48,624 nucleotides of DNA from a virus. Positions within the stretch are counted from its first letter, which is position 1. Each line of letters begins with the position of its first letter. The position numbers and the translations under genes were made by a program. The stretch lies in the IMG/VR virus record IMGVR_UViG_3300031772_004323, positions 1-48,624 of that record; one strand, written 5' to 3'. Positions 5,744 through 44,733 of this stretch are shown piece by piece. The notes under the pieces are model-generated. The model did not search any database. It had not been told where the DNA came from and saw nothing but the letters and a program-made list of their open reading frames with translations.

Positions 5744-6351
5744 AAAAAGCATCAGGAATGTCAAATATAGATATAGTAAAAAGTTATGTAAGAGGTGACC
5801 GTCCATTTTCACAAGTTGGCTATAATGAGAATACAACCAAACGAAAAGAAGGTGAAGTTTGGAAATCTAAAGGCCAAACTTGGACTATTAAAAATGGAGT
5901 TAAAATTGCAATAAATAGTATAGGAAAAAATATAGATTTAGTTCGAGAAGAGTGTAAGGGTTGTCATAAGAATATAAAATTATTTGGTGACAGGTTAGAT
6001 GTAAAAATGTATAAAAAAACAGGAAACTGCTTTGATTGTCAAATTAAATTTGAATCGGAGTTGAAAAGAAAGGGTAAATATGAAAAATACGAAAAACTTA
6101 AAATTTTTCATAATCAAAAAAGCTTCTGTTTGGATTTAAAACAAAAGCTTGAAGAATCTATTCAATACCTTGAAACCAGCGGTGATAAAATTCCATATAT
6201 GCTGGAAGATGGAAGAACAATGTATTGGGATGATACGATGCGGGAAAAAGTGTTAAATGATGCCAAAAATGATTATAAAGAATGTTTGGAATCGTTGGAA
6301 AGAATTGAGGGACAATTAAAATCTTTAAATGAAAGACCAAGCAACAATTAA
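5740..6351 (+). CDS. Zinc-ribbon and coiled-coil protein preceding the terminase
   Basis: A 203-residue protein of unknown function. It carries one probable zinc ribbon, C-x2-C (EECKGCHK, about residues 70-73) and C-x2-C (NCFDCQ, about 97-100), then a charged, helical C-terminal half rich in Lys and Glu. It starts on an ATGA overlap with the HTH gene and its 3' end overlaps the terminase gene by 23 nt. The position is that of T4 gene 16 (small terminase), and small terminases often combine a DNA-binding head with a helical oligomerisation region. I see no direct similarity to gp16, so that role is only a positional suggestion. Confidence 0.6.
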   Translation: MKKASGMSNIDIVKSYVRGDRPFSQVGYNENTTKRKEGEVWKSKGQTWTIKNGVKIAINSIGKNIDLVREECKGCHKNIKLFGDRLDVKMYKKTGNCFDCQIKFESELKRKGKYEKYEKLKIFHNQKSFCLDLKQKLEESIQYLETSGDKIPYMLEDGRTMYWDDTMREKVLNDAKNDYKECLESLERIEGQLKSLNERPSNN

Positions 6352-7960: not shown

Positions 7961-8000
7961 TGAATATTAAATGGTTATTATAATAACATTATAATACTTA

Positions 8001-8008
8001 TATTTATG
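8001..8008 (+). promoter_or_regulatory. TATTTATG, variant of the candidate late promoter
   Basis: One mismatch from TATTTATA, 18 nt before the portal ATG at 8027, in a noncoding gap of 66 bases. Confidence 0.35.
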
Positions 8009-8026
8009 GACTATAACTAACAATTT

Positions 8027-11000
8027 ATGGCAACAAATTTTACAAATCAAGAATCATTGGATCTAAAATCAAGGTCTTTATACGCAAGGTTAAAAAGGTT
8101 ATTTTCAACAGATGTAATTGTTCGTAATGTCGGTGGAAAATTACTAAAAATAAAAGATACTGATCAAGCTCAGTATGCTACAGACAGAAATACCCTTCGG
8201 GATAGATTTAATCGAGTAAGAACTTCGGGTTATAGTCAATATAGTAGAGATTTTACATTAGCATATCAAGCTTCGAGAATTGAGCTGTTTCGGGATTACG
8301 ACACAATGGATATGGATCCAATCATAGCATGTTTGGCATCAGACACTTACATATCAACTTTAAATGGAAACGTAACAATAAAAGAACTGGCAGAAAAATA
8401 TCCTAATGGAGAATCATTTGAAGTATGGTCATGGGATAAAGAAAATTGTAAATATACAATTGGTAATGCACATCACCCCAGAAAAACAGGAACAAAAAAA
8501 GTTGTAGAAATACATTTTGACAATAATACTTGTTTGAAATGTACAGAAGACCATAGAATATTATTGATTGATGGGACATATAAACAAGCAAGAGATTTAA
8601 AGACTAATGATTCTGTTATGCCTTTTTTGTATAAAAACGACGAATATATGATGATTAAATCTAAAGAGGGGAAGTATAAGAAGGCGCATAGATATATTTA
8701 TGAAGATGTTTTTGATAAAAATATAGATAATATAGCAATTCATCATATTAATCATAATAAATATGATAATAGATCTACCAATTTACAGGAAATGTCTATT
8801 ACAGAGCATGCTTTATATCATGGTAAATCGCCAATCACAATAGAAAGAAAAAAGATTATTTGGTCAGAAGAAGCTAAGAAGAAACAGGGTGAAATTGTAA
8901 AAGAAAGATTTGATAATCCTAAGTATAGAGAAAAATTTTCTTCTATAATGAAGGATGTTATGATGGATGTTAATATAAAGAAACGAATATCTGATACTAT
9001 GAAATCTGTTTGGAAAACCACCGGTGGTTATAAAGAAAATGCTTTGAGTGGATGGAAAAAATGGCAAGCATCCAAAGAAGGCAAAGATTTCATGTCTAAA
9101 CATAGTTCAAAAATGAATTCTGAGAGATGGAAGAATGATATTAATTATAAAGAGAAAATGACTAAAATATTTTCTGATCATGCTAAGAAATTGTGGAACA
9201 CCGATGGGTTCAAAGAAAAATTTGTAAAGGAGAGATTGGAAAATTTAAAATTAAAAATTGCAAATGACCCGGAATACACAAAAAAGACCTATGGTAAAAT
9301 TGGGACAAGGAATCCTAATTTTAATAATGAAATTACTAATGAATTTATTTTAGTAGAAGGCCAAAAGTATAATACACTTAAAGAGTTTGCTGATAGCGTT
9401 GTTATTGATGCGTCTAAATCTCCGCGATGTAAATCACAATTTATAAGGAGAAGATTGGGCGCATGCGGATATAATTCTTTTGATGAATATAAGCAGAAGT
9501 ACAATTACACTAATCACAAGGTAATAAAAATTGTTAATAATAATGAAACAAGTGATGTGTATGATTTGACTGTAGATTTCTTCGAAAATTTTTGTCTGAA
9601 AGATGGCATCATCGTGTCGAATTCAGCTCTCGATATTTATTCTGATGAGTGTTTAAAAGAAAATGAATTCGGTCAAATTTTGACTGTTAAATCCACCAAT
9701 GATAATATAAAGAAGATCTTACATAACTTATTTTATGATATATTAAATATTGAATTTAATCTTTGGTCGTGGACTAGAAATATGTGTAAGTATGGAGATT
9801 TTTATTTGAAGTTGTATATTTCTCCTGAATATGGAATTTTCTTAGTTGAACCTCTTTCTTCTTATAATGTTACACGGGTTGAAAATAGTAATCCTGAGAA
9901 TAAAAACTACATAAAATATCAAATCAGTTTTGAAAGTGGTGTAATGGAAGAACTTGAAAACTATCAAATAGCACATTTTCGATTGATTTCTGATAGTAAT
10001 TTCTTGCCGTATGGAAAATCCATGGTTGAGGGCGCAAGACGTGTTTGGAAGCAACTTTCATTGATGGAAGATGCGATGCTTATTCATCGTATTATGCGTG
10101 CACCAGAAAAAAGAGTGTTTAAAGTTGATGTAGGAAATATTCCACCAAATGAAGTTGACCAGTATATGGATAGACTTATCAACAAGATGAAGAAAATTCC
10201 ATATATAGATGAAAAGACTGGTGATTACAATTTAAGATTCAACTTACAAAACATGGTTGAAGATTTTTATATTCCGGTTCGTGGTGGAGATAGTGGCACG
10301 GCGATTGAACCTCTTTCGGGAATGGAATTTACCGGCATTGATGATATTGAGTATCTTCGAAATAAAATGATGGCCGCGTTGAAGATTCCGAAGGCGTTCT
10401 TGAGTTATGAAGAAGATTTGTCAGGAAAAGCAACTTTGGCCGCTGAAGATGTTAGATTTGCTGGAACTATAAGCAGAATTCAAAAAATTCTTATATCAGA
10501 ATTATCTAAAATAGCTATTGTTCATTTGTATTCTCAGGGCTATACTGATGCAGAGTTGGTAGATTTTTCTCTTGAGTTTGCTAATCCATCTATAATTCTT
10601 GAAAAAGAAAAGGTTGCTATATTAACGGATAAGGTAAGTGTTGCTAAAGATATAAGAGAAAATAAGTTATTTTCTACAGAATGGATATACAAAAATCTAT
10701 TCAAATTCTCCGATGATGATATTTTGAAGATTAAGAATGCTCTTGTTAATGATGCAAAACAAGAATGGCGCTTAAAGAGCATTTCAGAAGAAGGTACAGA
10801 TCCCGCCGTTGAATTTGAAAAGATGAATACTTCAGGTGCCGGCGGCGGTGGTCCTCCATCTGAAGGTGGTGCTGGTGAAGGCTTCCCTGGAGAGCCAGGT
10901 GGACCTCCAGAACCGGGTGGTGCACCAGGCGGTGAAGCTCCTCCGGGTGCCCAAAAGGTTGGGGGAGGGCCTGAGACTCCGGAAGCTGGTGCTGGAAAGG

Positions 11001-11332
11001 AATTGCCTCCACTTACAGAAAAGGCAATTCGGCCATCGCAAGAAGGTGAAAAAAATGCTAAAGATTATCCATTTGGTGAAGACCCACTTGGAAGTCTTGA
11101 AAACAATGCTGATTACAGGAAAAATCCTTTGCAATATAAATACAAAAAAAATTCCCCTCTTGGATTTGAAAGTGTAAATGTAGATCCTAGAAAACTTCTT
11201 CCCCATGTAAATCTAAAAAGTCTAGCAATGTTTCTAAAAAATGATGAAAAACGAGAATTATTACAAGAAAATAAAGATAATGGAAGTAAATCTAAGTCTA
11301 TGTTGGACGAAACTAATATAAGAGGAGAATAA
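8027..11332 (+). CDS. Portal protein (T4 gp20-like) interrupted by an intein
   Basis: The 1101-residue precursor has an N-extein (1-101), an intein (102-532) and a C-extein (533-1101). The exteins join as MDMDPIIA/SALDIYSDE, the conserved segment of T4-like portals, giving a spliced product of about 670 residues (T4 gp20 is 524). The C-extein shows portal features: WSWTRNMCKYGDFYLKL, the HRIMRAPEKRVFKVDVG segment and LSYEEDLSGKATLAAEDVRFA. After about residue 925 there is an unusual Gly/Pro/Glu-rich tract, then a Lys-rich tail, so the protein is longer than T4 gp20 at the C-terminus. As dodecamer it forms the DNA channel and nucleates head assembly. It is followed by the head-core genes. Confidence 0.93.
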   Translation: MATNFTNQESLDLKSRSLYARLKRLFSTDVIVRNVGGKLLKIKDTDQAQYATDRNTLRDRFNRVRTSGYSQYSRDFTLAYQASRIELFRDYDTMDMDPIIACLASDTYISTLNGNVTIKELAEKYPNGESFEVWSWDKENCKYTIGNAHHPRKTGTKKVVEIHFDNNTCLKCTEDHRILLIDGTYKQARDLKTNDSVMPFLYKNDEYMMIKSKEGKYKKAHRYIYEDVFDKNIDNIAIHHINHNKYDNRSTNLQEMSITEHALYHGKSPITIERKKIIWSEEAKKKQGEIVKERFDNPKYREKFSSIMKDVMMDVNIKKRISDTMKSVWKTTGGYKENALSGWKKWQASKEGKDFMSKHSSKMNSERWKNDINYKEKMTKIFSDHAKKLWNTDGFKEKFVKERLENLKLKIANDPEYTKKTYGKIGTRNPNFNNEITNEFILVEGQKYNTLKEFADSVVIDASKSPRCKSQFIRRRLGACGYNSFDEYKQKYNYTNHKVIKIVNNNETSDVYDLTVDFFENFCLKDGIIVSNSALDIYSDECLKENEFGQILTVKSTNDNIKKILHNLFYDILNIEFNLWSWTRNMCKYGDFYLKLYISPEYGIFLVEPLSSYNVTRVENSNPENKNYIKYQISFESGVMEELENYQIAHFRLISDSNFLPYGKSMVEGARRVWKQLSLMEDAMLIHRIMRAPEKRVFKVDVGNIPPNEVDQYMDRLINKMKKIPYIDEKTGDYNLRFNLQNMVEDFYIPVRGGDSGTAIEPLSGMEFTGIDDIEYLRNKMMAALKIPKAFLSYEEDLSGKATLAAEDVRFAGTISRIQKILISELSKIAIVHLYSQGYTDAELVDFSLEFANPSIILEKEKVAILTDKVSVAKDIRENKLFSTEWIYKNLFKFSDDDILKIKNALVNDAKQEWRLKSISEEGTDPAVEFEKMNTSGAGGGGPPSEGGAGEGFPGEPGGPPEPGGAPGGEAPPGAQKVGGGPETPEAGAGKELPPLTEKAIRPSQEGEKNAKDYPFGEDPLGSLENNADYRKNPLQYKYKKNSPLGFESVNVDPRKLLPHVNLKSLAMFLKNDEKRELLQENKDNGSKSKSMLDETNIRGE
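8330..9622 (+). mobile_element. Intein with HNH homing endonuclease in the portal gene
   Basis: A 431-residue in-frame insertion begins at C102 (block A: CLASDTYISTLNG) and ends at N532 (block F: DVYDLTVDFFENFCLKDG; block G: IIVSN) before extein Ser533. Block B has the TEDH motif (CTEDHRILLIDG). The residue before the terminal Asn is Ser rather than the usual His. The centre carries an HNH motif (IHHINHNKYDNRSTNL, near residues 237-252) followed by repeated basic helices of NUMOD type. It should self-splice and home into intein-less portal genes. DNA in the insert is richer in AT than the flanking extein. Confidence 0.93.
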
Positions 11333-11367
11333 TATTCATAAAATGTATATTTTGTGAAATATTATAA

Positions 11368-11375
11368 TATTTATA
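11368..11375 (+). promoter_or_regulatory. TATTTATA motif, candidate late promoter
   Basis: Exact motif, 14 nt before the ATG at 11390. An AAGGAA ribosome-binding site lies between motif and start, so a transcript beginning just downstream would still carry it. Confidence 0.5.
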
Positions 11376-11389
11376 ATTAAGGAAATTAT

Positions 11390-12268
11390 ATGGAAAGCAA
11401 ATCTAAGCATTCAAAATTCAAGAATACTGGTATATTATTTGAATTATTAACAAGGCAGGTCACGTCGGACATTCTATCTGGGAAGGATGATAGCAAAGCA
11501 AAAGATTTACTTTTCAAGTATTTTAATGAATCCCGCGAAATAGGCAGAGAGTGGCAACTTTATAACTTCTTGGTAAATGAGCAGTTAAAGAATGAAACCA
11601 CCGCTGACCGAGCAATTAACATTGCTATGCGTTCTAGAGAAAAAATAAATAACAAAAAACTTGCAGAAGAAAAATATTCATTGATTAAAGAGATTAAAGA
11701 AACTTATCCAATTGATAAATTTTTAAAGTCGAGTATTAAAAACTATAAAGTTCACGCTTCAATTTATAAGGTGTTTGAAAACCATTTAAATAACAATTTT
11801 GACGCAAAAGAAGTAATTCAAGCAAGAACATGTTTAGTTGAGAATTTGGTAAATAAAAAAGATGTTAAAAATGTTAATGATCAACTCATGGAAATCTTTA
11901 AAAATCAAAAGGAAGAAATTAGATTGCTTTCCTATAAACTTTTGGTTGAAAAGGTGAATAAGAAGTATAAAGACTTGAATAAGAATCAAAAAGATATTTT
12001 GCGTGAATATATTAATTCGGTTTCAAATACAAATTCTCTTCCTGAGTTTTTAGCGAAAGAGCGTGAGTTTGTCGTGAATGAATTATCCACTCTGGCAAAA
12101 GAGATCCCAGCAAAAATAACAAATATTAAGTTAAATGAAGCTCTCCATCAAATCAATGGCCTTGATTTTTCTAAAGGTGTAAAGGATAGTCATATAAGTA
12201 TACTATTGCTTTCTCATGAACTTATTAAAGAAATACGGAGTAAAATAATTTCCAATGACAAAAAATAA
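11390..12268 (+). CDS. Conserved head-module protein of unknown function
   Basis: A 292-residue, strongly helical and Lys/Glu-rich protein without recognisable enzymatic motif. It begins MESKSKHSKFKNTGILFELL, a start I associate with uncharacterised proteins beside portal genes in environmental T4-like phages. It lies between portal and prohead protease, where T4 has the small core genes 67 and 68, so a prohead-core or assembly role is plausible from position only. Start supported by TTAAGGAAATTAT upstream. It overlaps the next gene by 14 nt. Confidence 0.7.
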   Translation: MESKSKHSKFKNTGILFELLTRQVTSDILSGKDDSKAKDLLFKYFNESREIGREWQLYNFLVNEQLKNETTADRAINIAMRSREKINNKKLAEEKYSLIKEIKETYPIDKFLKSSIKNYKVHASIYKVFENHLNNNFDAKEVIQARTCLVENLVNKKDVKNVNDQLMEIFKNQKEEIRLLSYKLLVEKVNKKYKDLNKNQKDILREYINSVSNTNSLPEFLAKEREFVVNELSTLAKEIPAKITNIKLNEALHQINGLDFSKGVKDSHISILLLSHELIKEIRSKIISNDKK

Positions 12269-12975: not shown

Positions 12976-13614
12976 ATGGAAAGACAACTTTTAATAAATT
13001 GTATAGAATTCGTACAGATAAAAGAACCTCTGAATGAAACTCAATTAAATCAAATTTCTACTCCTGCTGATGGGAAGGTTATTGTCAAGGGAATTTTACA
13101 GAGAAAAAGTAGTGAAAATCAAAATGGCCGTGTTTATCCAGATGATGTATTGATGCGTGAAGTTGGCAAATATGATGAAAATTTTGTAAAGCAAAAGAGG
13201 GCTATGGGTGAGCTTGACCATCCAGAAAGCACCGTTGTCAATCTTAAAAATGTTAGCCATAATGTTAAAAAGATGTGGTGGAGTGGAGACAATCTTCTTG
13301 GAGAAGTGGAAATATTAACTACGCCAAGTGGAAATATTCTTAAAGAATTGTTTCGATGTGGAATTACCATTGGAATATCCAGCCGTGGATTGGGCAGTGT
13401 AAAACAGCTAAAAGAAGGAACAGTAGAAGTCCAAGATGATTTTGAACTTATTGCTTTCGATTTTGTTAGCAATCCATCAACCGTCGGCGCATTTATGCAT
13501 CCTGAGATTGGTTCTAATTTGAATGAATCCAAGGAACTTGTATATAATAATGTTACAAATCAATGGCAAGATGTAGATAATTTGATTTACGAAATATTAA
13601 ATGAAATAAAATAA
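12976..13614 (+). CDS. Prohead core maturation protease (T4 gp21-like)
   Basis: Serine protease of the phage prohead protease family, 212 residues, as in T4 gp21. Catalytic candidates are H82 in GELDHPE and S135/S136 in GISSRG, in the order and spacing of the family; the FDFVSNPS segment near residue 157 is also typical. It cleaves scaffold, capsid and internal proteins after (Leu/Ile)-x-Glu during head maturation. The ATG follows the preceding stop by one base (TAATATG), which indicates translational coupling. The cleavage specificity links it to the tagged proteins discussed in the findings. Confidence 0.92.
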   Translation: MERQLLINCIEFVQIKEPLNETQLNQISTPADGKVIVKGILQRKSSENQNGRVYPDDVLMREVGKYDENFVKQKRAMGELDHPESTVVNLKNVSHNVKKMWWSGDNLLGEVEILTTPSGNILKELFRCGITIGISSRGLGSVKQLKEGTVEVQDDFELIAFDFVSNPSTVGAFMHPEIGSNLNESKELVYNNVTNQWQDVDNLIYEILNEIK

Positions 13615-17284: not shown

Positions 17285-18961
17285 ATGAGTACACAGGTAA
17301 AAGAATTGCTAACAGGCAATAAAAGCCCACAGAGTCGTCTTATGGAAGAGACTCGTGGACTACAGGGTAAGTGGGAGAAGACAGGACTTCTTGAGGGCCT
17401 AAATGGCCTTGATAAAGCCAACATGTCAGTCCTTCTTGAAAATCAAGCCCAACAATTGATTACAGAAGCAACCTCAACGGGTACTTCAGCTAACAGTGAA
17501 CAATGGGCGGGCGTTGCTCTACCATTGGTTCGTCGTGTGTTTGCTGAAATCGCTGCGAAGGAATTCGTCAGCGTGCAACCAATGAATCTACCTTCGGGTC
17601 TGATATTCTATCTAGATTTTAGATATGGTACAGATCAAAAGGGTAATCCAGCATTCACTAGCACCTCTATGTTTGGTGGAACAGATCTAAAACTCGGTTC
17701 GACAGATAGCGCAACGCGGGGTCTATATGGCCCAGGACGTTTTGGTTATTCAGTGAATGACCAATCTATAGGCGTGCTGTTAACAACCGGTTCAGTAACG
17801 GGTGACGATATTGATTGGAATATCGATCAAATAGTAACAGGTAGTTTGACAAAGGTAACATTCAATCTGTTTGATAATGCTACAGCAGCTGCAGACTTGC
17901 CAGGCGTTCGTTCGTTCCAGTTAAGTGGTTCGTCCGCAGGTGGCGGTGGTACCGGTATAGCTGTGACTGATGTTCTTCCTCAATATACTGTTGTAAGAAA
18001 CACAGGAACATTGGCCGTTCCAATATATATAGTTACAATGATTGTAACGGGTAGTGCTAACGTAATACCTGGAAGCAGTTCATTGTTCTATACAAAACAA
18101 CCAACACCATCAACTCGTGGTGATTTCGAAGATACCGCGGCTAGCACAGCTGGCCAACCAGTTAATCCTGGCGTTGGTATTCCTGAAGTCAACCTTGAGT
18201 TGAAGAGTGAACCAATCGTTGCAAAGACACGTAAGTTGAAGGCTGTCTGGACTCCAGAATTAGCGCAAGACTTAAATGCTTATCACAGCATTGACGCTGA
18301 AGCAGAGCTAACCGCTCTCTTGAGTGAATATGTGTCGATGGAAATCGACTTGGAAATTCTTGACATGCTTATCACGGCGGCTCCTGGTGTAACAACCGAA
18401 GCTTGGAGTGCTAAGATTGGTGTTGAGTTTAGTAAAACCCTTAGTACCGCAGGTTTAGCCTCGTTTACTTACTTGGCAGACGCTTCTCCAAATCGTACTG
18501 CTTATGTAAAGTCTACCTGGTTCCAAACACTAGGCAACAAGATTCAAAAGGTATCTAACAAGATTCACCAATTGACTCTTCGTGGTGGTGCTAACTTCTT
18601 GGTATGTTCGCCAGATGTAGCGACAATCTTGGAATCAATTCCAGGCTATGTTGCTTCAACAGATGGTGATAGTGCTAAGTTCGCAATGGGTGTCAGCAGA
18701 GTTGGTAGCTTCGCAAGTCGCTTCCAAGTCTACAAGAATCCTTATATGGTAGAAAACCAGATCTTGGTTGGCTTCCGTGGAAGTAACTTCTTGGAAACTG
18801 GCGCTGTATATTCACCTTATATTCCACTGGTCCAAACACCATTGGTATATGATCCGGTGAACTTTACACCACGTCGTGGCGTCATGACGCGTTATGCGAA
18901 GAAAGTAGTCCGCCCAGAGTTCTATGGTAAGATCTGGATTGCAGACCTTAACACTGTCTAA
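17285..18961 (+). CDS. Major capsid protein (T4 gp23-like)
   Basis: A 558-residue HK97-fold shell protein (T4 gp23 is 521). The N-terminal prodomain ends at LITE/A (E61/A62), matching the (L/I)-x-E cleavage rule of gp21 proteases, so the mature protein should start at A62. Family hallmarks include EQWAGVALPLVRRVFAE, VSVQPMNLPSGLIFYLDFRYG and the C-terminal PVNFTPRRGVMTRYAKK segment. The codon and base usage is less AT-rich than that of most neighbours, as expected for the most expressed gene. A strong terminator follows 26 nt after the stop. Confidence 0.96.
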   Translation: MSTQVKELLTGNKSPQSRLMEETRGLQGKWEKTGLLEGLNGLDKANMSVLLENQAQQLITEATSTGTSANSEQWAGVALPLVRRVFAEIAAKEFVSVQPMNLPSGLIFYLDFRYGTDQKGNPAFTSTSMFGGTDLKLGSTDSATRGLYGPGRFGYSVNDQSIGVLLTTGSVTGDDIDWNIDQIVTGSLTKVTFNLFDNATAAADLPGVRSFQLSGSSAGGGGTGIAVTDVLPQYTVVRNTGTLAVPIYIVTMIVTGSANVIPGSSSLFYTKQPTPSTRGDFEDTAASTAGQPVNPGVGIPEVNLELKSEPIVAKTRKLKAVWTPELAQDLNAYHSIDAEAELTALLSEYVSMEIDLEILDMLITAAPGVTTEAWSAKIGVEFSKTLSTAGLASFTYLADASPNRTAYVKSTWFQTLGNKIQKVSNKIHQLTLRGGANFLVCSPDVATILESIPGYVASTDGDSAKFAMGVSRVGSFASRFQVYKNPYMVENQILVGFRGSNFLETGAVYSPYIPLVQTPLVYDPVNFTPRRGVMTRYAKKVVRPEFYGKIWIADLNTV

Positions 18962-19060: not shown

Positions 19061-19188
19061 ATGGGCAAACTAAGCAAGCCGATTATAAATTATTAACTTA
19101 TAAAGGTAAACCGACACGCAAGTATTTGCATGTGATACTATATCGAATGCCAAGCGGAAGTTATGAAGTAACAAGGTATATATTATGA
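19061..19188 (+). pseudogene. Small gene with a broken or shifted reading frame
   Basis: The ATG at 19061 opens only MGKLSKPIINY and stops. One base back, the frame from 19072 reads ADYKLLTYKGKPTRKYLHVI, then LYRMPSGSYEVTRYIL, and ends in an ATGA overlap with the next gene at 19185. The second frame looks protein-like but has no good start codon of its own. A single-base indel or a minus-one shift near 19066-19080 would join both into a protein of about 42 residues. I cannot tell mutation, assembly error and programmed shift apart. Confidence 0.4.
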
Positions 19189-19469
19189 AAAAATCAGAAT
19201 TAAAACAACTTATTAAGGAAGTCATTAATGAAACAAATTCCCAACGTCTTACTACCGATATGAAGGGAGATTTAGATTGGTATGTAAACCAAGGAAAAAA
19301 ATTAACAGCAAAAGACAAAAACCTACAGTCTAGTATATCAGAATTGATAAATAATGCGTTTGTAGCTGGTTATCATCATGGTGGGCAAAAGATGCTTATG
19401 ATGGTTGATAAGAAGATTACTTCGGGGGAGATTCCAATGCCAAGGATTCGGGACGTAGGATTAAATTGA
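19185..19469 (+). CDS. Tagged small protein, MKKSELKQLIKEVINE family (94 aa)
   Basis: Starts with MKKSELKQLIKEVINE, the tag common to many proteins here, which contains the gp21-type sites LIKE/V and VINE/T. The remaining 78 residues form a helical domain (DLDWYVNQGKKLTAKDK; FVAGYHHGGQKMLMMVDKKI) of unknown function. It overlaps the upstream frame by ATGA. The first 50 bases are nearly identical in DNA to those of the gene at 19484, which points to exchange of the tag as a module. Confidence 0.7.
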   Translation: MKKSELKQLIKEVINETNSQRLTTDMKGDLDWYVNQGKKLTAKDKNLQSSISELINNAFVAGYHHGGQKMLMMVDKKITSGEIPMPRIRDVGLN

Positions 19470-19483
19470 AGGAAGAATATATT

Positions 19484-19768
19484 ATGAAAAAATCAGAATT
19501 AAAACAACTTATTAAAGAAATAATAAATGATGAAAAATCTTTTTATAATGAAATTTCTACATTTCACGATAAATGGAAATCGTCGAAAGATATACCGCAT
19601 CCTTATAACACAAAAACAACTGATATCGCTAAACATATTATAGCTAAAGCCGCTCGAATACGAGATGAATATCATATGACATATGAAGAAGCATTACGGG
19701 CTATATTAGCATATATTAATGCTGATATAGAAAGATTAGGTATACCGCCGGAGAAATTTCCTGCATGA
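19484..19768 (+). CDS. Tagged small protein (94 aa)
   Basis: Starts MKKSELKQLIKEIINDEKS. I chose ATG 19484, preceded by GAAGGAAG, over a TTG at 19466 inside the end of the upstream gene. The body is a helical domain of unknown function with a run resembling a helical bundle (IAKHIIAKAARIRDEYHMTY, then EEALRAILAYINADIERLG). It ends in an ATGA overlap with the next gene. The gene forms a set with 19185 and 19765. Confidence 0.7.
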   Translation: MKKSELKQLIKEIINDEKSFYNEISTFHDKWKSSKDIPHPYNTKTTDIAKHIIAKAARIRDEYHMTYEEALRAILAYINADIERLGIPPEKFPA

Positions 19769-20133
19769 AAAAATTAGAACTAAAACAAATTATTAAAGAA
19801 ATTGTGGGTGAAATGGAAGAGGTGGAGGTATTTTCTGATTGTTGCGGTCAGCAACCGAAACGTGAAGTTGAAACGCGAAAGGACAGTTCTGGGAATCTTG
19901 TTGGAGTTTGTTCTAGATGTGGAAATTGGACAAATTTTACCCCCGATGAAGGTCAATCTTTAAATGAAGCAGAAAGAAGTCTTCCTGTGTCTATGCTTGT
20001 TGGTGGAAAAATTGAAAGTTATTCTGTAGATACAGGCAGTGGCAACACGAGGGTAATATATTTTATAGTAAAAGGCTCTCAGAGATATTCTCTATCAACC
20101 AGTGATGGTGTAATCAAAAAATTGGCATTTTAA
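19765..20133 (+). CDS. Tagged zinc-ribbon protein (122 aa)
   Basis: Starts MKKLELKQIIKEIVGEMEE, the shared tag. It is followed by a zinc ribbon made of DCCGQQP (about residues 24-29) and CSRCGNW (about 48-53), then a short linker and a beta-rich domain (LVGGKIESYSVDTGSGNTRV; YSLSTSDGVIKK). The same ribbon type recurs in the next gene (CCCHAPP...CSKCETRG), so the two are related. Function unknown; candidate head cargo or metal-binding structural protein. Confidence 0.7.
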   Translation: MKKLELKQIIKEIVGEMEEVEVFSDCCGQQPKREVETRKDSSGNLVGVCSRCGNWTNFTPDEGQSLNEAERSLPVSMLVGGKIESYSVDTGSGNTRVIYFIVKGSQRYSLSTSDGVIKKLAF

Positions 20134-20135
20134 TT

Positions 20136-21929
20136 ATGGCAGTATTACAATCTCCAAATAAAATTTTAAATCAAAGATATAGTAAGTTGACCGGTTGGTT
20201 AGATACTAAAGGAAGACATTTGCCATTTGAAGAGGGTCATGAAGAAACATTAAAAAAGTATTTTCCAAAATTAAATCTTACCAACCCACAAGCAGTTGAG
20301 CGGGGATTTACATGGTTATCTGTTATGAAGGATTTTGGTGGTAAAATATTTCTTACGGCAGAAACACTACTTGAGAAATTGCCTTTGGCTAAAAACTTTA
20401 TACTGAAAAATAATGTTGAGAATCTCCCCGGTTTTATTCAAACACAAAATGCGTTTGGGCAACTGGACAATAAAGTATATTTTGATGGATTTGATTTTGT
20501 AAGTGAAGGAAAAAATAAAATGAATAGAAAAAAACTAAAGCAATTGATCAAAGAAGCAATAAATGAAGTTACTTCTGTGGTTAGTCTTAAAAGGCATATA
20601 GAGGATTATGTAAAATATCATCCTGATACCGATATTGAAGATGTAATTGATGGTATGGAAGATGAAGCTAGTAATGCGGGTGTATCTTTTAAACAATTAA
20701 AAGTAATGGCACAAGCCGCTATGTATGCTCACGGTGATTACACAGAAAATTCAGAAAAGTATTCTATAAAAGAGACTTCTAATCAAAATATTAATTTGGA
20801 TGTTAAAAAAATAAAGAATATAAGGATAGGCGGTATAAATAGAAGAGATTATCCTGATTTTGCCGATGCTTATGTTGAATCTGCAGAATATTTAGATGAC
20901 AGTGGTAATGGGAGAGATTTAACTGAGGATGAACTGGATTGGTTAAACAATAATCATCCAGAAATAACAAGCGAAAAGGCTCATGAACAATTTCGTAATT
21001 CTTATGCTGATAGAGAATTTGATGAAAAAATTTCAGAACAAAATGGTGAAGATGACTATGAGATGCACAAATTTCAAAAAGGTATATCTGATTTTAATAA
21101 AAAGAATCCACAGCGGTATCCTTGTCCAACCTGTAAAACACCGAATGCTTTATCGGCTCATGAAAAGAAAAGCGGATATCAGTGTAGCAAGTGTGCTGAT
21201 TCCGAAGAAGGTGTGTGTGAAGGAAAACCTTATGGAAGTACATTAGTATCTTGTTGCTGTCATGCACCTCCTGTTAATGGAGTAAATGCAAACCATGTAG
21301 GTACCTGTAGTAAATGTGAAACTAGGGGAGATTTTATACAAAAAACATCTATAGAAGATTTGCCGATATCACCATCGGCTAAACAAGCATTTAAACACGC
21401 AGATATGCGTGGCGAAACTGAACCAGAATCTTTGGATGAAATGTCCGTTTCACACAATATTAGTCCAGAAGATAAAGCCAATGGTGTTACGGGATATATA
21501 AACATTAATGCTAAATGTAAAGGTTGTGGGAAGCCTTGTAAGACATTAAGAAAGAATGCTTATAATAAAGAATGTATAGCGTGTTCCAAGGAATGTGCTA
21601 ATAAGGGATTGGATGAAGCTCAGTCTGGCGGTGAAAATCCTGATACTCAAAATTCAAATCCTCCAATCAATTCTAATGGAAAAGTATCGGTGATTTCGGT
21701 GGATCAGTGGACTTCTTCGGGGGAGTGGAAGGGCACTCCTTTTGATAAGTTAGAGTTAAATTTGATACAAGGTGGAGATAGTGCAGCCGCTAAAGCAATT
21801 TTTGGTGGTTCTTTTAAGAGAAAAGAAGTAGCACCGACAGATTCTCCGTCAATTGGAAGTGTGTGGTTAGTTAAAGGTAAAGATGGTTTTCCGAAAATAT
21901 GGAAAACAAATTATGATACATCAGATTAA
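20136..21929 (+). CDS. Multi-domain protein with an internal tag and three zinc ribbons
   Basis: A 597-residue protein. Residues 1-127 form a separate domain (LDTKGRHLPFEEGHEETL...). At residue 129 a complete tag begins (MNRKKLKQLIKEAINEV), preceded in the DNA by GAAGGAAAAAATAAA, a usable ribosome-binding site, so a second protein starting at 20520 may be made, or two genes have fused. Downstream come three Cys clusters: CPTC/CSKC (C330-C353), CCC/CSKC (C373-C394) and CKGCGKPC/CIACSKEC (C461-C487). The C-terminal 90 residues are beta-rich. No function is recognised; the ribbons suggest nucleic-acid or protein binding. Confidence 0.7.
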   Translation: MAVLQSPNKILNQRYSKLTGWLDTKGRHLPFEEGHEETLKKYFPKLNLTNPQAVERGFTWLSVMKDFGGKIFLTAETLLEKLPLAKNFILKNNVENLPGFIQTQNAFGQLDNKVYFDGFDFVSEGKNKMNRKKLKQLIKEAINEVTSVVSLKRHIEDYVKYHPDTDIEDVIDGMEDEASNAGVSFKQLKVMAQAAMYAHGDYTENSEKYSIKETSNQNINLDVKKIKNIRIGGINRRDYPDFADAYVESAEYLDDSGNGRDLTEDELDWLNNNHPEITSEKAHEQFRNSYADREFDEKISEQNGEDDYEMHKFQKGISDFNKKNPQRYPCPTCKTPNALSAHEKKSGYQCSKCADSEEGVCEGKPYGSTLVSCCCHAPPVNGVNANHVGTCSKCETRGDFIQKTSIEDLPISPSAKQAFKHADMRGETEPESLDEMSVSHNISPEDKANGVTGYININAKCKGCGKPCKTLRKNAYNKECIACSKECANKGLDEAQSGGENPDTQNSNPPINSNGKVSVISVDQWTSSGEWKGTPFDKLELNLIQGGDSAAAKAIFGGSFKRKEVAPTDSPSIGSVWLVKGKDGFPKIWKTNYDTSD

Positions 21930-24931: not shown

Positions 24932-25405
24932 TTATTTTGAATACTGACAGATATACACATCAAATTTTTCTGCGAATAAATGTTTTATCATTTCATTGAC
25001 AATTGGCCATGACCCGCCGGCAAGTGTACATCCCATGTTTTTTGGGAAGCCAATTGTTTTTAAATTTTTATATAGGCAACTTGCTGCCATTTTATCTAAT
25101 GCTGAATAGATGGATTCATAATCCAAATATCTCTTATCTGTGCCATAATAATACTGGCCATAAAGATTATAAATATATTTTAGGTGTGGGTTTGAATCGT
25201 GGGATTGCACAAGACAATCACTAAAACTTCCAAATTTGGTTTTATCACCTTTTGTGGTCTTGCAATCAACAAAATAAGCTTCGGGAAACTTTTCTCGAAT
25301 TTGCCTTGCGATGCCACTGCCCATTGTATTAAAACAATTACAACAATGCGCGATGGCTTCGACATTGGCTGTTAATAAATCGGTGTTTTCTAGCTCAAAT
25401 ATCAT
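24932..25405 (-). CDS. Macrodomain protein (ADP-ribose binding)
   Basis: A 157-residue single macrodomain. The N-terminal EAIAHCCNCFNTMGSGIARQ (17-36) is the ADP-ribose-binding loop with the conserved Asn and GSG; FPKNMGCTLAGGSW (about 118-131) is the second phosphate-binding loop. It resembles Poa1/ALC-type macrodomains that hydrolyse ADP-ribose 1''-phosphate or remove ADP-ribose. In a phage it could reverse ADP-ribosylation by the host or by phage enzymes, or recycle NAD metabolites. First gene of a minus-strand set with a small protein and a DUF4326 protein. Confidence 0.88.
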   Translation of the reverse strand: MIFELENTDLLTANVEAIAHCCNCFNTMGSGIARQIREKFPEAYFVDCKTTKGDKTKFGSFSDCLVQSHDSNPHLKYIYNLYGQYYYGTDKRYLDYESIYSALDKMAASCLYKNLKTIGFPKNMGCTLAGGSWPIVNEMIKHLFAEKFDVYICQYSK

Positions 25406-31914: not shown

Positions 31915-34206
31915 ATGAATAACCACGACATATATATCCATCAATACAATGGCTCGGCTTTTGAAGAACGATCAATTTCTGGTTCAAATCTTGTTATTGG
32001 CACTGATGTTAATGGCCGATTAATAGGAAATAAAGATGTTGGCGTTATTGTTAAGGGCGCTGGCAACAATTCGTCCATGCGTTGCACTAGTGGTAATACC
32101 GCGTCAGGAAATTATAGCACGGCTCTTGGCCGGTGTAATACTGCCGGCGAAGACTATGCAACAGTGGGCGGTGGTTATTGTAATTGTGCTTTCAGAGGAA
32201 CTTCAACAGTAAGTGGTGGTTATTGTAATTCGGCAAGTGGTTACAGCGCTGTTGTTAGCGGAGGCGATTGTAATTTGGCTAGTGCCGGCGAAGCAGCAAT
32301 CGGCGGTGGTTGTGCAAACACTGCTAGTGGGCCTTATACAACAATTGGCGGTGGTGCTAGTAATACTGCTAGTTCTTATGGTGCAACCGTGAGTGGTGGT
32401 TATTTTAATTCTGCTAGTGCTTATGGTGTAACCGTGAGTGGTGGTGGCTATAATACTGCTAGTGGTTCAGGTGCAACGGTGAGTGGAGGTTGGTTTAATT
32501 CTGCTAGTTCTTATGCTGTAACCGTGAGTGGTGGTAAATGTAATACTGCTAGTTGTAAGTATGCAACAGTTGGTGGTGGTGAATGTAATACTGCTAGTGG
32601 TCTTTATGCAATCATAGGTGGCGGTTATTGTAATGCCGCCAGTTGTCAGTATGCAACCGTAAGTGGTGGCCGTGATAATATTGCTTCTGGTAATTCTGCA
32701 ACGATGAGTGGTGGTTATACTAATACTGTTAGTGGTAATTATTCCGTAATAGGTGGTGGAGAATTGAATAATGCTAGTGGTTGTTATGCAACTGTGGGGG
32801 GTGGTAAATGTAATACTGCTAGTGGTCTTTATACAATCATAGGTGGCGGTTTTTGTAATACTGTCAGTGCTTCTTATATTTCAACCGTAGCTGGCGGTCG
32901 AGGTAACATTATATGTACTGGCGGTGGTGGCAACACAATTAGTGGCGGTGCCAATAATACTGCTAGTACTATTTATACAACAATTTCAGGTGGATATTGC
33001 AATTCTGCTAGTGCTAGGTATGCAACTGTGGGCGGCGGTTGTTATAATTCTGCTGTCGGTTGTTCTTCTACAATTGGTGGGGGTATTGGTAATACTGTTA
33101 GTGGTAATTATTCAACGGTGGGTGGTGGTGCTGGCAATGCAATTTTAAATTGTTGCGATACAAATTCTAGTTATTATACTACTTTTGGAAGCAATGCTGG
33201 AACGATTGGCGGTGGTACAAGCAACACAATTATTCATTGCATTGCTAATGTTAGTATTTGTGGTGCTATTGCTTGCGGTAACAATACTATTGGTGGTGGT
33301 TCTAATAATACTGCCGGATATACCATTAATGGAAATTTTCAATGCTCTGGTTTTGCAACAGTTGGTGGTGGTTCTAATAATACTGCTACTCATTTAGGAA
33401 CAACAATTGCTGGTGGTAAAGCCAATCTTGCTAGTTGTAAGTTTGCAACAGTGGGCGGTGGATGTAGCAATACTGCTAGTTGTAATTATTCAACGGTGAG
33501 TGGTGGTTATAATAATACTACTAGTGGCTTTTCAACAACAATCGGCGGTGGCTGTGGTAATACTGCTAGTTATAATTATGCAACAGTGGGCGGTGGATGT
33601 AGCAATACTGCTAGTGGTTATTACACAACAGTTGGTGGTGGCTGTGGTAATACTGCTAGTGGTGTTTATTCAACGATAGCTGGTGGTGACCAGAATAATA
33701 GTAGTGGTATGTATGCTACGATTGCTGGCGGTGGTGGCAATCTTGCTACTGGTTTATATGCAACAATAGGCGGAGGTTGGGGTAATACTGCTAGTAATAA
33801 TTCTGCAACGGTAAGTGGTGGTTATATTAATATTGCTAGTGGTGTTTATTCAACAGTAAGTGGTGGTCAAGTTAATACTGCTAGTTGTAAGTATGCAACA
33901 GTAAGCGGCGGCTATAAAAATATTGCTAGTGGTTCATATGCAACAATTGGTGGTGGTTGTAACAATCTTGCTGACGGAGATAGAAGTGGAATTTTGGGCG
34001 GTGCCAACAATAATATGTGTGGTGCAAGTGATTCATTTATTGTTGGTTCGAATATACTTGCAACGGCTGTATGTACTACTTTTGTTAATAATTTGAATGT
34101 TGAGAATAATATAACCGCGGCAACATTTGTTGGTGGTAATTGTAATGTTAGTGGAAGCGGCACTGTATTACACTTCTGCCGAGGATTGTTTGTATGCGCA
34201 ACATAA
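31915..34206 (+). CDS. Cys-rich YadA-head-like tail fibre protein
   Basis: A 763-residue protein. An N-terminal 60-residue domain (MNNHDIYIHQYNGSAFEERS...) probably attaches it to the virion. Then come about 45 Hep/Hag-type repeats of 14-16 residues (for example YATVGGGYCNTASG), followed by a closing segment (DSFIVGSNILATAVCTTFVN, NLNV) as in the fibre at 1-2871, and a short tip. Such repeats stack into a trimeric left-handed beta-roll. Very unusual is the regular Cys within many repeats (GGYCN, NTASC). It sits right after the gp15-like gene and is followed by a spanin-like protein and glycan enzymes. Confidence 0.8.
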   Translation: MNNHDIYIHQYNGSAFEERSISGSNLVIGTDVNGRLIGNKDVGVIVKGAGNNSSMRCTSGNTASGNYSTALGRCNTAGEDYATVGGGYCNCAFRGTSTVSGGYCNSASGYSAVVSGGDCNLASAGEAAIGGGCANTASGPYTTIGGGASNTASSYGATVSGGYFNSASAYGVTVSGGGYNTASGSGATVSGGWFNSASSYAVTVSGGKCNTASCKYATVGGGECNTASGLYAIIGGGYCNAASCQYATVSGGRDNIASGNSATMSGGYTNTVSGNYSVIGGGELNNASGCYATVGGGKCNTASGLYTIIGGGFCNTVSASYISTVAGGRGNIICTGGGGNTISGGANNTASTIYTTISGGYCNSASARYATVGGGCYNSAVGCSSTIGGGIGNTVSGNYSTVGGGAGNAILNCCDTNSSYYTTFGSNAGTIGGGTSNTIIHCIANVSICGAIACGNNTIGGGSNNTAGYTINGNFQCSGFATVGGGSNNTATHLGTTIAGGKANLASCKFATVGGGCSNTASCNYSTVSGGYNNTTSGFSTTIGGGCGNTASYNYATVGGGCSNTASGYYTTVGGGCGNTASGVYSTIAGGDQNNSSGMYATIAGGGGNLATGLYATIGGGWGNTASNNSATVSGGYINIASGVYSTVSGGQVNTASCKYATVSGGYKNIASGSYATIGGGCNNLADGDRSGILGGANNNMCGASDSFIVGSNILATAVCTTFVNNLNVENNITAATFVGGNCNVSGSGTVLHFCRGLFVCAT
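32080..34030 (+). repeat. Imperfect tandem repeats of about 45-48 bp coding for Hep/Hag motifs
   Basis: Degenerate units of the pattern AATACTGCTAGTGGT...GCAACAGTGGGCGGTGGT, each one coil of the predicted beta-roll. They also produce long spurious open frames in other phases. Similar units occur at 430-1000 and 1540-2250. Confidence 0.85.
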
Positions 34207-40209: not shown

Positions 40210-40731
40210 ATGGCTAATACCGACAGAATATTATATCTCGATATGGATGGCGTGATTTCAGACTTTAACAAGCAAGTGATTAAATACACTAAATTGTCAC
40301 TGGGAGAGCCCTTGGACAGCGATTTATTAACGCAAAAATACGGCCGGAAGGAGCTTTTAACGATAATGGACTCTGGAGGGGAGGAATTCTTTTCTGAGAT
40401 GCCTATTATGAAGGATATGTATGAGTTAAAGTCCTTCATTTTTAACAATTTTATAAATATTAAGATACTCAGTTGTATCAAGGGAAATCCTCCTGCCACT
40501 GATAGAATAAATGGTAAACTTAAATGGTTAAAGACTTATAGTTTCAATTTACCAGATGCCAATATTATACTTATAGATAAGAGTGTAAATAAGCAAAAAT
40601 ATGCTAGACCAAATGACATTTTAATAGATGATATGGAAATAAATATAAATCAATGGAATCAGCGCGGTGGGATTGGAATATTACATAAAAATTCCAAAGA
40701 TACAATCAGGCAACTTAGCCAATATGTCTAA
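40210..40731 (+). CDS. HAD-family phosphatase / 5'-nucleotidase-like protein
   Basis: A 173-residue haloacid-dehalogenase-fold protein. Motif I is YLDMDGVISDF with nucleophile D11 and acid D13; a motif II-like ILSCIKG (about residue 95) and the C-terminal motif IV ILIDDMEININQW (about 136-148) are present. Together they resemble the small 5'(3')-deoxyribonucleotidase and phage HAD proteins. Likely role is dephosphorylation of a nucleotide or repair end. Its stop overlaps the start of the next gene. Confidence 0.8.
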   Translation: MANTDRILYLDMDGVISDFNKQVIKYTKLSLGEPLDSDLLTQKYGRKELLTIMDSGGEEFFSEMPIMKDMYELKSFIFNNFINIKILSCIKGNPPATDRINGKLKWLKTYSFNLPDANIILIDKSVNKQKYARPNDILIDDMEININQWNQRGGIGILHKNSKDTIRQLSQYV

Positions 40732-42187
40732 TAATATAAAAGATAAATTTAAAATTTACAACAATACTCTAGATCCGTTACTCTGGGATTCGGCCGGAAA
40801 TCTTAAACCAGATGTTGCGAAACAATTGCTGACAATTGCTAATGAATTTTATGAAAGCTTGGAAATCAAACCATTGCTACGCAATGTAATACTTCTTGGT
40901 TCTGCTGCATCATTCAACTATAGTGCAAAAAGTGATATAGATATTCACTTGGTAATAGATTTTAAAGAGTTGGACATGGAAAATGAGGATGCGCATAAAT
41001 ATGTTAATGCATTAAAATCGGTATGGAATGACAAACATGATATTCATATAAAAGGAAAAAATGTTGAAGTTTACATTCAGGATGTAAAACATATTACTCA
41101 TGCCAACGGCATTTATTCATTATTAAATTCGATTTGGCTGAAAAAACCTATAAAAGAAAATACTGGAATAGTTGATAAGGAGCTTATAAAACAAAAATAT
41201 AACGATATGGTTTATAAGATAGTCAATTTGGAAAAATCCACAGGAGACAACAAAACAAAAATTGAAAAAATAAAACAAATTCTCACCGACATATATGTAA
41301 TGCGGCAAGCAGGTTTGGATTCTGCGGGAGAATTGAGCACAGAGAATATAGTTTTTAAGTTACTAAGACATCGTAATTTTATCAAACGATTGAAAGATTT
41401 AAAAGATGTTTTGTATGATAAAGCTCTATCGTTGAATGAAGCAATAGAGGCAAACTTACAAGTTAAAAAAGATAAAATTAGTGACCGCTTGACCAGATTT
41501 TTTCTATGGAATGGGGGACAAAAAGTTGGGAAGTTAGCAGTCAATCGTGGATTATATGAAAATTATTATGTAATTTCATCGTTTATTGTTCACAACAAAG
41601 CAGATCGCGGCCGTGGTTATGGCTCAAAATTAATAAAAGCTGTTTTGGCGGATAAAGATTATGCTGATAGACCGCTGATTGTTAAACCAGAACCATATTA
41701 TGATGATGACACAACAGTTTCAGAATTAATGGATATGTATAAAAAGTTTGGGTTTATACCGTGGAAAGAAGATTTAAATTATATGATTTATAATAGACCA
41801 TTGAATGAAAACATAAAGATTGATAATATTAATGGTATCGGTGCTGTTCCGTGGAATCAAGAAGTGAACTATCGAGGCTTTAAGCGTTATATGACGCCGA
41901 ATGAATTTTTGAAACTTGCGTTGCCTATTTACGAAAAAGAATCTATAGATTTTTATATAAATTTAATCAAAAAAGATGGGATAGCATCGCCGTGGTTAGA
42001 AGTTGATTGGAATAAAAAATTAAAATGTTGGAGAACAGTTGGCCACGAAGGAAGGCATAGAATGGCCGCAGTGCAAAAAATTTCTCCAAATGAAAAAATA
42101 GAAATCCATGTGTTTCCCCGTGGTATGAGAGCAAAAGACTTGACAGATGATATGAAAAATGCCATAATATTAAAACAATTAAAATGA
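40724..42187 (+). CDS. Three-domain fusion: nucleotidyltransferase, GNAT acetyltransferase, HEGRHR domain
   Basis: A 487-residue protein. The start at 40724 overlaps the HAD gene; an earlier in-frame ATG (40667) lies inside that gene. Residues 50-110 have a Pol-beta/MNT nucleotidyltransferase motif: LLGSAASFNYSAKSDIDIHL (G59-S60, D71-x-D73). Residues 240-345 look like a GNAT domain with the acetyl-CoA loop RGRGYG (R295-G300) and YKKFGFIPW. The last 110 residues carry GHEGRHRMAAV (H441-R446), as in ParB/sulfiredoxin-like phage domains. No toxin-antitoxin partner is seen. Such chains of enzyme domains resemble the polyvalent proteins that phages inject to modify host targets. Confidence 0.72.
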   Translation: MSNNIKDKFKIYNNTLDPLLWDSAGNLKPDVAKQLLTIANEFYESLEIKPLLRNVILLGSAASFNYSAKSDIDIHLVIDFKELDMENEDAHKYVNALKSVWNDKHDIHIKGKNVEVYIQDVKHITHANGIYSLLNSIWLKKPIKENTGIVDKELIKQKYNDMVYKIVNLEKSTGDNKTKIEKIKQILTDIYVMRQAGLDSAGELSTENIVFKLLRHRNFIKRLKDLKDVLYDKALSLNEAIEANLQVKKDKISDRLTRFFLWNGGQKVGKLAVNRGLYENYYVISSFIVHNKADRGRGYGSKLIKAVLADKDYADRPLIVKPEPYYDDDTTVSELMDMYKKFGFIPWKEDLNYMIYNRPLNENIKIDNINGIGAVPWNQEVNYRGFKRYMTPNEFLKLALPIYEKESIDFYINLIKKDGIASPWLEVDWNKKLKCWRTVGHEGRHRMAAVQKISPNEKIEIHVFPRGMRAKDLTDDMKNAIILKQLK

Positions 42188-42684
42188 AAACAAAATTAAA
42201 ACAATTAATACCAGAAATAAATAAAAGTCTAAAAAGATTTTATGTGGCATACAATGAATATTCAGAGGTGACACGGCCTAGGAGTCCTGACGATGAGTGG
42301 GATGCTGATGATATTCTTACCACTGTTGAATTTGAAAATGCCTTTATTGCTATTGATGGAGACACCGCTGGCAAGCACACTGTAGATGTTACATCTTATG
42401 CGGCGAGCGATGGTACTAGCGACCACTATTTCAGAGAAATGGATATAGAATGGAATGAAAATTTTGATGATATATATCTTGTTTACGCAAGATATTCAGA
42501 TGGAGATACCTTTCATAGAGAAGAGGGCAAGTGGGCAGTAATTGCAGCTTTTTCAGATATTCATAAAGCAAAAACTTGGATAAAGAGGAATGAAGAAATT
42601 GTTGGTAAGAATTTTAGCGGATATTTTGAGAGATATCATGGCTTACACATTGAAAAATTACCATTTAAAAACTATACGATATGA
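42184..42684 (+). CDS. Tagged protein (166 aa)
   Basis: Begins MKTKLKQLIPEINKSLKRFY, a diverged form of the shared tag (LIPE/I). The remainder is an acidic domain of unknown function with many Asp and Glu (SPDDEWDADD, DGDTAGKHTVD) and a C-terminal helix. It starts on ATGA overlap with the three-domain fusion, so the two are translationally coupled and may be delivered or act together. No family recognised. Confidence 0.65.
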   Translation: MKTKLKQLIPEINKSLKRFYVAYNEYSEVTRPRSPDDEWDADDILTTVEFENAFIAIDGDTAGKHTVDVTSYAASDGTSDHYFREMDIEWNENFDDIYLVYARYSDGDTFHREEGKWAVIAAFSDIHKAKTWIKRNEEIVGKNFSGYFERYHGLHIEKLPFKNYTI

Positions 42685-43221: not shown

Positions 43222-44733
43222 TTAAATTCTATTAGTAAATATCCATTTGCTGTTGCCACAATCCCAAATTCTATCATAGCCATTTAATTTCATATTTTCC
43301 CATTCACTCAATTTTGGATCAAAGGTTTTTAGAATCTTTTTTAACTTATGCTTTTGAAAACTCATGCGATTTTTTAAATCCTTATAATTGTTGATTATAT
43401 AACTATATCCAGGAGGTGTGTGGTCTACAAAATTAAACCCTAATTTTTTATATAAATTACCATGAAAATATCTCCTATCACAATATGAAACAATATTTTT
43501 TGGTGCATAATTTTGAATGAAATAAACAAATAATTTACTGGCGCCTCCATTAACTATGGTGTTTGTTTTGTTACAAAACCTTGTTAATTCCCACTGAAAG
43601 CATTTTTCAAATCGAGAACCTTTTCTAAATGTCATAATAGACACCAAATCGGTTTTGTGATATAACCCAATTTTTATTGTAGATTTATCCTCTCCTTGTA
43701 AATGATTGCGGTTTAAAAATTCATTCTTTTCTTTTTCAGTCACTTCTATAATGCTACACTCGCGCGCATTAATTTTATCTATAACAGAAACATTTAATAA
43801 ATTTTTAATTATAGATTTTACAATTTCTTCCTTATATAACCATTCATTTTCAAATATGTGTATAAGATTAATTCCATGATAAGCGCAGGATTTGGTTTTA
43901 TTTAAATGATAAAGCCTGTTTGTTTCTCCTGAATTTTCACTGTGCCAATATAAACCATTTATCTCAAAAGCATATTTTTTGTCGGGAATATAAAAATCTA
44001 ATTCCTTTCCAACTAATATTGTTCTATCATTCCGTTTTATAATTGTTTCTTTATCAACTATTTCTTGAAGAAATTTATAAAATTTATTTTCAACGGTGGT
44101 TATTTTCTCAGGCTCACAATAATCACAGAATAAATTATTTAAATTATACACAGTAGTTTCTAAAATTTTATTACAATTTAAACATTTTAATTTGTATAAA
44201 TTACTAAAATGGTATCCTTTATAATCAACTTTAGAACACAATAACTCAAGCTTCTTATCTTTGCAAAAATTTATCAAAAAATCATAGTGATTAGATTTTT
44301 TAGTCAATGTGGTTTGTTCAACAATAGTTTTAGATTTTTGAGGATTATCTACACCATACCGAGATAACATAGTAGATTTTATCTTTTTTATGTTGTTATA
44401 ATTTTCGATACCATACCTGTCTTTTAATGTTGCTTTAACGTTAATAATAAAATTAGGCATTTTTGCTGGATGATCAACACCATATTTATTTAACATTGAT
44501 CGCTTAAAGGTGTCTTGAACCTTTTTTGTTTGCATTGGATGTTCGACGCCATATTTTTTTAAATAAGTCTTTTTTTGACTTTCACGCATTTTGTTAAGAA
44601 CCGAAGGCGCGTGCTGTGCACATGTTTTACTACAATATACTTGATGTTTTTTTTCATATTTGATGTTAAAATCCTTGCCACAAGTTGGACAACGATTAAT
44701 TACAGTCAGTGGATTCTTTTTTGGTCTAGCCAT
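43222..44733 (-). CDS. Homing endonuclease-like protein (VSR/EDxHD type)
   Basis: A 503-residue protein opposite to its neighbours. Residues 12-40 form a zinc ribbon-like site (CPTCGKDF...YCSKTC). Then come four KYGV-x-HPxQ-type repeats (LKKYGVEHPMQ, LNKYGVDHPAK, KDRYGIENYNN, LSRYGVDNPQK) that bind DNA in this group. The nuclease core shows GKELDFYIPDKKYAFEINGLYWHSE, as in VSR-like EDxHD homing enzymes, followed by INLIHIFENEW. A C-terminal domain is typical of the family (GGASKLFVYF, SYCDRRYFHG). It is a freestanding selfish gene next to the tail tube gene. Confidence 0.85.
   Translation of the reverse strand: MARPKKNPLTVINRCPTCGKDFNIKYEKKHQVYCSKTCAQHAPSVLNKMRESQKKTYLKKYGVEHPMQTKKVQDTFKRSMLNKYGVDHPAKMPNFIINVKATLKDRYGIENYNNIKKIKSTMLSRYGVDNPQKSKTIVEQTTLTKKSNHYDFLINFCKDKKLELLCSKVDYKGYHFSNLYKLKCLNCNKILETTVYNLNNLFCDYCEPEKITTVENKFYKFLQEIVDKETIIKRNDRTILVGKELDFYIPDKKYAFEINGLYWHSENSGETNRLYHLNKTKSCAYHGINLIHIFENEWLYKEEIVKSIIKNLLNVSVIDKINARECSIIEVTEKEKNEFLNRNHLQGEDKSTIKIGLYHKTDLVSIMTFRKGSRFEKCFQWELTRFCNKTNTIVNGGASKLFVYFIQNYAPKNIVSYCDRRYFHGNLYKKLGFNFVDHTPPGYSYIINNYKDLKNRMSFQKHKLKKILKTFDPKLSEWENMKLNGYDRIWDCGNSKWIFTNRI

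Follow-up and report, generated by a model that had tools for sequence, protein, structure and literature searches.

The DNA examined here (IMGVR_UViG_3300031772_004323; the window, 48,624 nt in length) encodes a terminase, a portal protein, an S77 prohead protease, a Gp23 capsid protein, a tail sheath and a tail tube, and this gene content identifies it as the virion module of a T4-like phage. The capsid protein has its nearest relatives (52-54% identity) in Microcystis phage Mel-JY01, an uncultured phage and Flavobacterium phage immuto, and its translation contains a candidate propeptide cut site, LITE↓A (the arrow marks the predicted cut, here and below). A 115-kb contig, G002, matches the final 18,794 bases of the window apart from two mismatches and extends the phage. 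The genes central to this analysis are as follows.

12976 to 13614, + strand: prohead protease of the T4 gp21 family (Peptidase_S77; PF03420, E 1.4e-29; phrog_207, E 4.3e-52).
17285 to 18961, + strand: major capsid protein of the Gp23 family (PF07068, E 3e-75; tblastn matches to T4-like phages).
40210 to 40731, + strand: HAD phosphatase gene, 173 aa, NT5C / 5'-3' deoxyribonucleotidase-like, with a DMDG motif.
40724 to 42187, + strand: putative NTase-GNAT-HEGRHR polyprotein, 487 aa (domain matches, models; identical in contigs G001 and G002).
42184 to 42684, + strand: 166-aa gene with the N-terminal capsid-targeting-like tag MKTKLKQLIPE.

The first-pass annotation had described the 487-residue chain as a fusion of a Pol-beta type nucleotidyltransferase (NTase), an acetyltransferase and a ParB/sulfiredoxin-like HEGRHR domain, coupled by start-stop overlaps to a preceding HAD phosphatase gene and to a tagged gene that follows. 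Profile matches and models confirmed this composition, with the GNAT-like part discussed below, and the overlaps are 8 nt with the HAD gene and 4 nt, of the ATGA type, with the gene at 42184. The exact order NTase-GNAT-HEGRHR was seen only in near-identical contigs. The chain can be divided into three predicted products and two predicted cleavage sites.

40724 to 41440, + strand: predicted product 1, Pol-beta superfamily NTase, residues 1-239 (phrog_36119, invariant residues, Foldseek).
41432 to 41440, + strand: predicted prohead-protease site 1, LNE(237-239)↓A, between NTase and GNAT.
41441 to 41809, + strand: predicted product 2, GNAT-like domain, residues 240-362 (Acetyltransf_7 below gathering score; RGRGYG).
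41801 to 41809, + strand: predicted prohead-protease site 2, LNE(360-362)↓N, just before the conserved KIDNxxGxGAV domain start.
41810 to 42184, + strand: predicted product 3, ParB/sulfiredoxin-fold domain with HEGRHR, residues 363-487 (alignment, model, Foldseek).

A full-length alignment mixing NTase and HEGRHR fragments was misaligned, and consequently the two parts were modelled separately. Searching solved structures by sequence yielded weak matches only. Residues 12-237 match phrog_36119 (E 3.8e-34), and G59, S60, D71, D73 and E115, representing the GS, the DxD and the third carboxylate, are invariant in 41 NTase sequences. AlphaFold2 confidence exceeds 90 across most of residues 10-235, and the best Foldseek matches of the model are AadA/AAD(9), LinB and MNT antitoxin, so that both the fold and the key residues of the Pol-beta superfamily are present. 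The same holds for the ParB/sulfiredoxin fold expected of the HEGRHR domain, which is conserved across 22 sequences and was modelled with a mean confidence of 90.7; its best Foldseek matches are sulfiredoxin, Noc, ParB and SbnI, with probabilities of 0.8-0.95 for the first three and a best E of only 0.036. The predicted fold is shared with ParB, Noc, SbnI, sulfiredoxin and Osa, but the HEGRHR family differs from these proteins in having its own IDNxxGxG start and in lacking the centromere-binding parts. No match to the HEGRHR segment, or to the HEGRHR domain of a relative, was obtained by tblastn against isolated phages.

The GNAT assignment is the weakest of the three. The segment matches Pfam Acetyltransf_7 over residues 258-345 just under the curated cut-off (E 2.7e-5; 24.9 bits versus 27), and its translation contains an acetyl-CoA motif A-like string, RGRGYG. 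The acetyltransferase fold is suggested at the sequence level only; the AlphaFold2 model of this part is of low confidence, a consequence of its having no close relatives: tblastn with the segment gave no match in isolated phages, and the sole phmmer match among all fetched loci was the protein itself, encoded on an identical contig.

Upstream, the HAD protein scores 27.9 bits against Pfam NT5C, above the cut-off of 24.8, and matches phrog_2643 (E 1.6e-23); the score and the DMDG string in its translation place it with the NT5C-type HADs. HAD homologues are fused before the NTase in 11 loci and within the chain of locus L049, and lie no more than 60 bp upstream of the NTase in six further viral loci. 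This recurrent fusion or adjacency in many phages suggests that the HAD and NTase may act jointly.

The T4 prohead protease gp21 cleaves C-terminal to L/I-X-E, and gp22 is cut at a Glu-Ala bond (PMC9026906). There are five [LI]xE sequences in the chain, of which only two are LNE (ending at E239 and E362), and these fall exactly in the two interdomain linkers; the other three copies lie inside domains. Thus, cut sites predicted from sequence and a gp21-type protease are both present in this phage. In the AlphaFold2 model a single helix runs through site 1. [LI]xE is a weak motif. In a general count, [LIV]NE occurs 11 times in the window versus 3.9 +/- 1.8 expected, and 15 times in the 115-kb contig versus 10.0 +/- 3.2. 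As the latter is only a mild excess, genome-wide counting is weak evidence and we used a test of domain boundaries in relatives instead.

An [LI]xE-type site occurs at the HEGRHR boundary in 17 of 23 non-redundant relatives, against a background of 12.5% (P about 2e-11), although such P values overstate independence, the relatives being of common ancestry, and are guides only. Standalone HEGRHR genes begin right after a tag, as in MKSSEFITE↓VTIDN (L175), MRANEFINE↓INIDN (L197) and MKIKEILE↓VT (L202), and elsewhere the domain is internal, after INE, ITE or LDE. All three contigs with a detectable S77 protease and Gp23 (L171, L190 and L191) have the boundary site; in most contigs with such sites no S77 protease was detected, and many are fragments. 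The relatives that lack it include L164 and L181, which look prophage-like, as judged only by sequence taken out of context. At the NTase joint, 17 of 21 fused NTases have [LIVM]xE in the expected window, as do 8 of 33 lone ones. This contrast is partly one of length, since lone chains often stop at that window or short of it, which itself lowers their count. In the fused proteins the motif is mostly at one fixed alignment column, with its glutamate at +32 after ENxxFK, and it is uncommon there in the lone proteins. These sites in relatives support the predicted processing of the chain.

Other chains are built in a similar manner, although several of their domain names are by-eye motif readings. 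The L049 chain strings together an NMNAT-like domain, an NTase, a zincin-like domain and a HAD, with SLNE↓N, ALNE↓N, TLNE↓S and PINE↓T between domains. L190 (the same protein as L139) combines HEGRHR with a GNAT-like segment and an MNT-type NTase of another kind, whereas HEGRHR is joined to GNAT in L165 and to an NTase of the phrog_36119 type in L172 and L174. In the L197 phage, GNAT and HEGRHR are separate tagged genes (MKASEFITE↓ and MRANEFINE↓). A separate observation concerns the 1841-aa chain of L165 (positions 5989-11514), in which QGVAEG-like separators recur between domains and may represent VAE↓G cut sites; no mention of the string was found in the literature searched.

That the protein encoded downstream of the chain is tagged, as previously noted, was borne out: a regular expression for the tag, run over the 178 proteins of the composite phage, gave 19 matches, and 13 of these fall in residues 1-22 (P about 2e-10). 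Profile searches of Pfam and PHROG identified no known domain in this protein. Further copies of the tag lie behind the capsid gene.

19185 to 20133, + strand: three small genes in a row, each with the tag at its start (MKKSELKQLIKE / MKKLELKQIIKE).
20136 to 21929, + strand: 597-aa protein carrying the tag internally, near residue 134 (MNRKKLKQLIKEAINE).

The 597-aa protein also contains several CxxC pairs and is perhaps another cargo polyprotein. The NTase-GNAT-HEGRHR chain itself starts MSNNIKDKFKIYNN, without an N-terminal tag, and none is gained from upstream in-frame starts; many lone and HAD-fused NTase relatives are also untagged. A homologue of the NTase, ORF156 of S-CREM2 (126012-126725; 37% identical), was identified by six unique peptides in a mass spectrometric analysis of CsCl-purified virions, in which its neighbors ORF154 and ORF155 were also detected (PMC10665884). 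ORF154 has a tag-like start, MKNFSSFLTE↓A. Virion presence is established for this distant homologue only, an NTase alone, and purified virions can carry contaminants.

What the evidence shows is the domains (the GNAT at the level of sequence), a cut motif in each linker, its recurrence at the corresponding boundary in relatives, the types of protease and capsid, and a distant NTase homologue in virions. We consider it somewhat better than even (a probability of roughly 0.55) that the chain is a packaged cargo polyprotein cut by the head protease, a variant of both the polyvalent proteins and the T4 internal proteins. According to this model, the polyprotein would be made late, its gene lying beside tail genes, and would enter the prohead by targeting that does not depend on an N-terminal tag. 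The gp21-type protease would then cut after LNE239 and LNE362, releasing an NTase, a GNAT-like protein and a ParB/sulfiredoxin-fold protein, which would stay in the head with other tagged cargo and be ejected with the DNA into the bacterium. There they may modify host molecules early in infection, most likely to blunt defence or take over metabolism. The NTase would transfer a nucleotide, perhaps together with the HAD phosphatase encoded next to it, and the GNAT would acetylate its presumed substrates. A modifying effector against host tRNA, protein or defence targets, as had been proposed for the chain, is plausible and agrees with the finding of an NTase of this family in S-CREM2 virions, but no such target was shown.

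The T4 internal proteins (IPI-III and Alt), which have capsid targeting sequences and are processed by gp21, share with this system the Gp23/S77 head and the [LI]xE motif, and are also alike in the tagged small genes of the same phage and in a proposed early role after injection. They differ in losing a short propeptide, whereas here there are several enzyme domains per chain with sites at the joints, and the N-terminal targeting sequence is found not on the chain but on its neighbor at 42184. In polyvalent proteins, a single chain unites several modifying domains of unrelated families, including GNAT and Pol-beta NTase, and delivery with the DNA has been proposed; the Pol-beta NTase was reported only in those of conjugative elements, and release of the domains was ascribed to a metallopeptidase within the chain (Iyer et al., 2017; PMC5512222). 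Like them, the chain carries two or more distinct catalytic or conflict domains on a mobile element. An embedded peptidase is common but not universal in polyvalent proteins; profile searches found no peptidase domain in the chain, and its sites instead match a head protease acting in trans. The phrog_36119 phage NTases, e.g., S-CREM2 ORF156, have the same domain and are virion-associated in S-CREM2, but are often lone proteins, whereas here the domain is fused to GNAT and HEGRHR.

A broader proposal, to which we give slightly less than an even chance, is that environmental T4-like phages encode combinatorial cargo polyproteins from interchangeable domains (NTase, HAD, GNAT, HEGRHR, zincin and NMNAT-like) with a head-protease site per joint, such that one gene would deliver several separate injected effectors and a domain could switch between tagged single gene and polyprotein unit, keeping its cut site. 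If so, head maturation would double as the release step for injected effectors, polyvalent proteins would be extended to processing in trans by the head protease, and a rule of tag plus [LI]xE joints would enable the injected arsenal of T4-like phages, mostly unannotated genes, to be read from sequence. No paper describing head-protease-cut cargo polyproteins was found in a literature search of incomplete coverage.

It is also feasible, but unlikely, that the chain is packaged and injected whole, as one uncut multifunctional protein like the classic polyvalent proteins. Multidomain phage and plasmid proteins that combine modifying enzymes are well described (PMC5512222), and the NTase homologue in virions would fit uncut packaging as well, but the LNE motifs lie exactly at both joints, relatives keep boundary sites and the domains are also found as separate tagged genes. 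The first-pass annotation had treated the chain as a single multifunctional effector; one enzyme with three activities was ranked lower because the head-protease sites at both joints point to a polyprotein instead. Improbable, too, is an unpackaged, late cytoplasmic protein that works with the HAD phosphatase on, e.g., nucleotides or RNA ends, its LNE motifs incidental or inherited. The untagged start of the chain, shared by HAD-NTase fusions, and the membership of the HAD in a nucleotidase family are consistent with such a role, yet the detection of an NTase homologue in virions, the location amid virion genes and just ahead of a tagged one, and the boundary statistics argue against it. Lastly, an antitoxin-like module, with the NTase working in the manner of MNT to AMPylate a host toxin of the HEPN type, is suggested by Foldseek matches to MNT antitoxins and HEPN-MNT complexes and a weak MntA profile match (14.2 bits versus a cut-off of 60), but is very unlikely given the larger size of the NTase, its helical C-terminal domain and the better scores of aminoglycoside adenylyltransferases; as this concerns the action of the NTase, it can coexist with any of the other readings.

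Several other features of the window merit mention. An insertion in the portal gene (8027-11332) matches HNH endonucleases and is probably an intein, and an HNH/homing endonuclease gene (43222-44733, - strand), read from the opposite strand, separates the tail sheath gene from the tail tube gene. The product of 24932-25405 (- strand) appears by eye to be macro domain-like (ADP-ribose related), and 79-2871 and 31915-34206 encode two long GGGxxNTASG-type repeat proteins, without a PHROG match, that are probably fibre-like.
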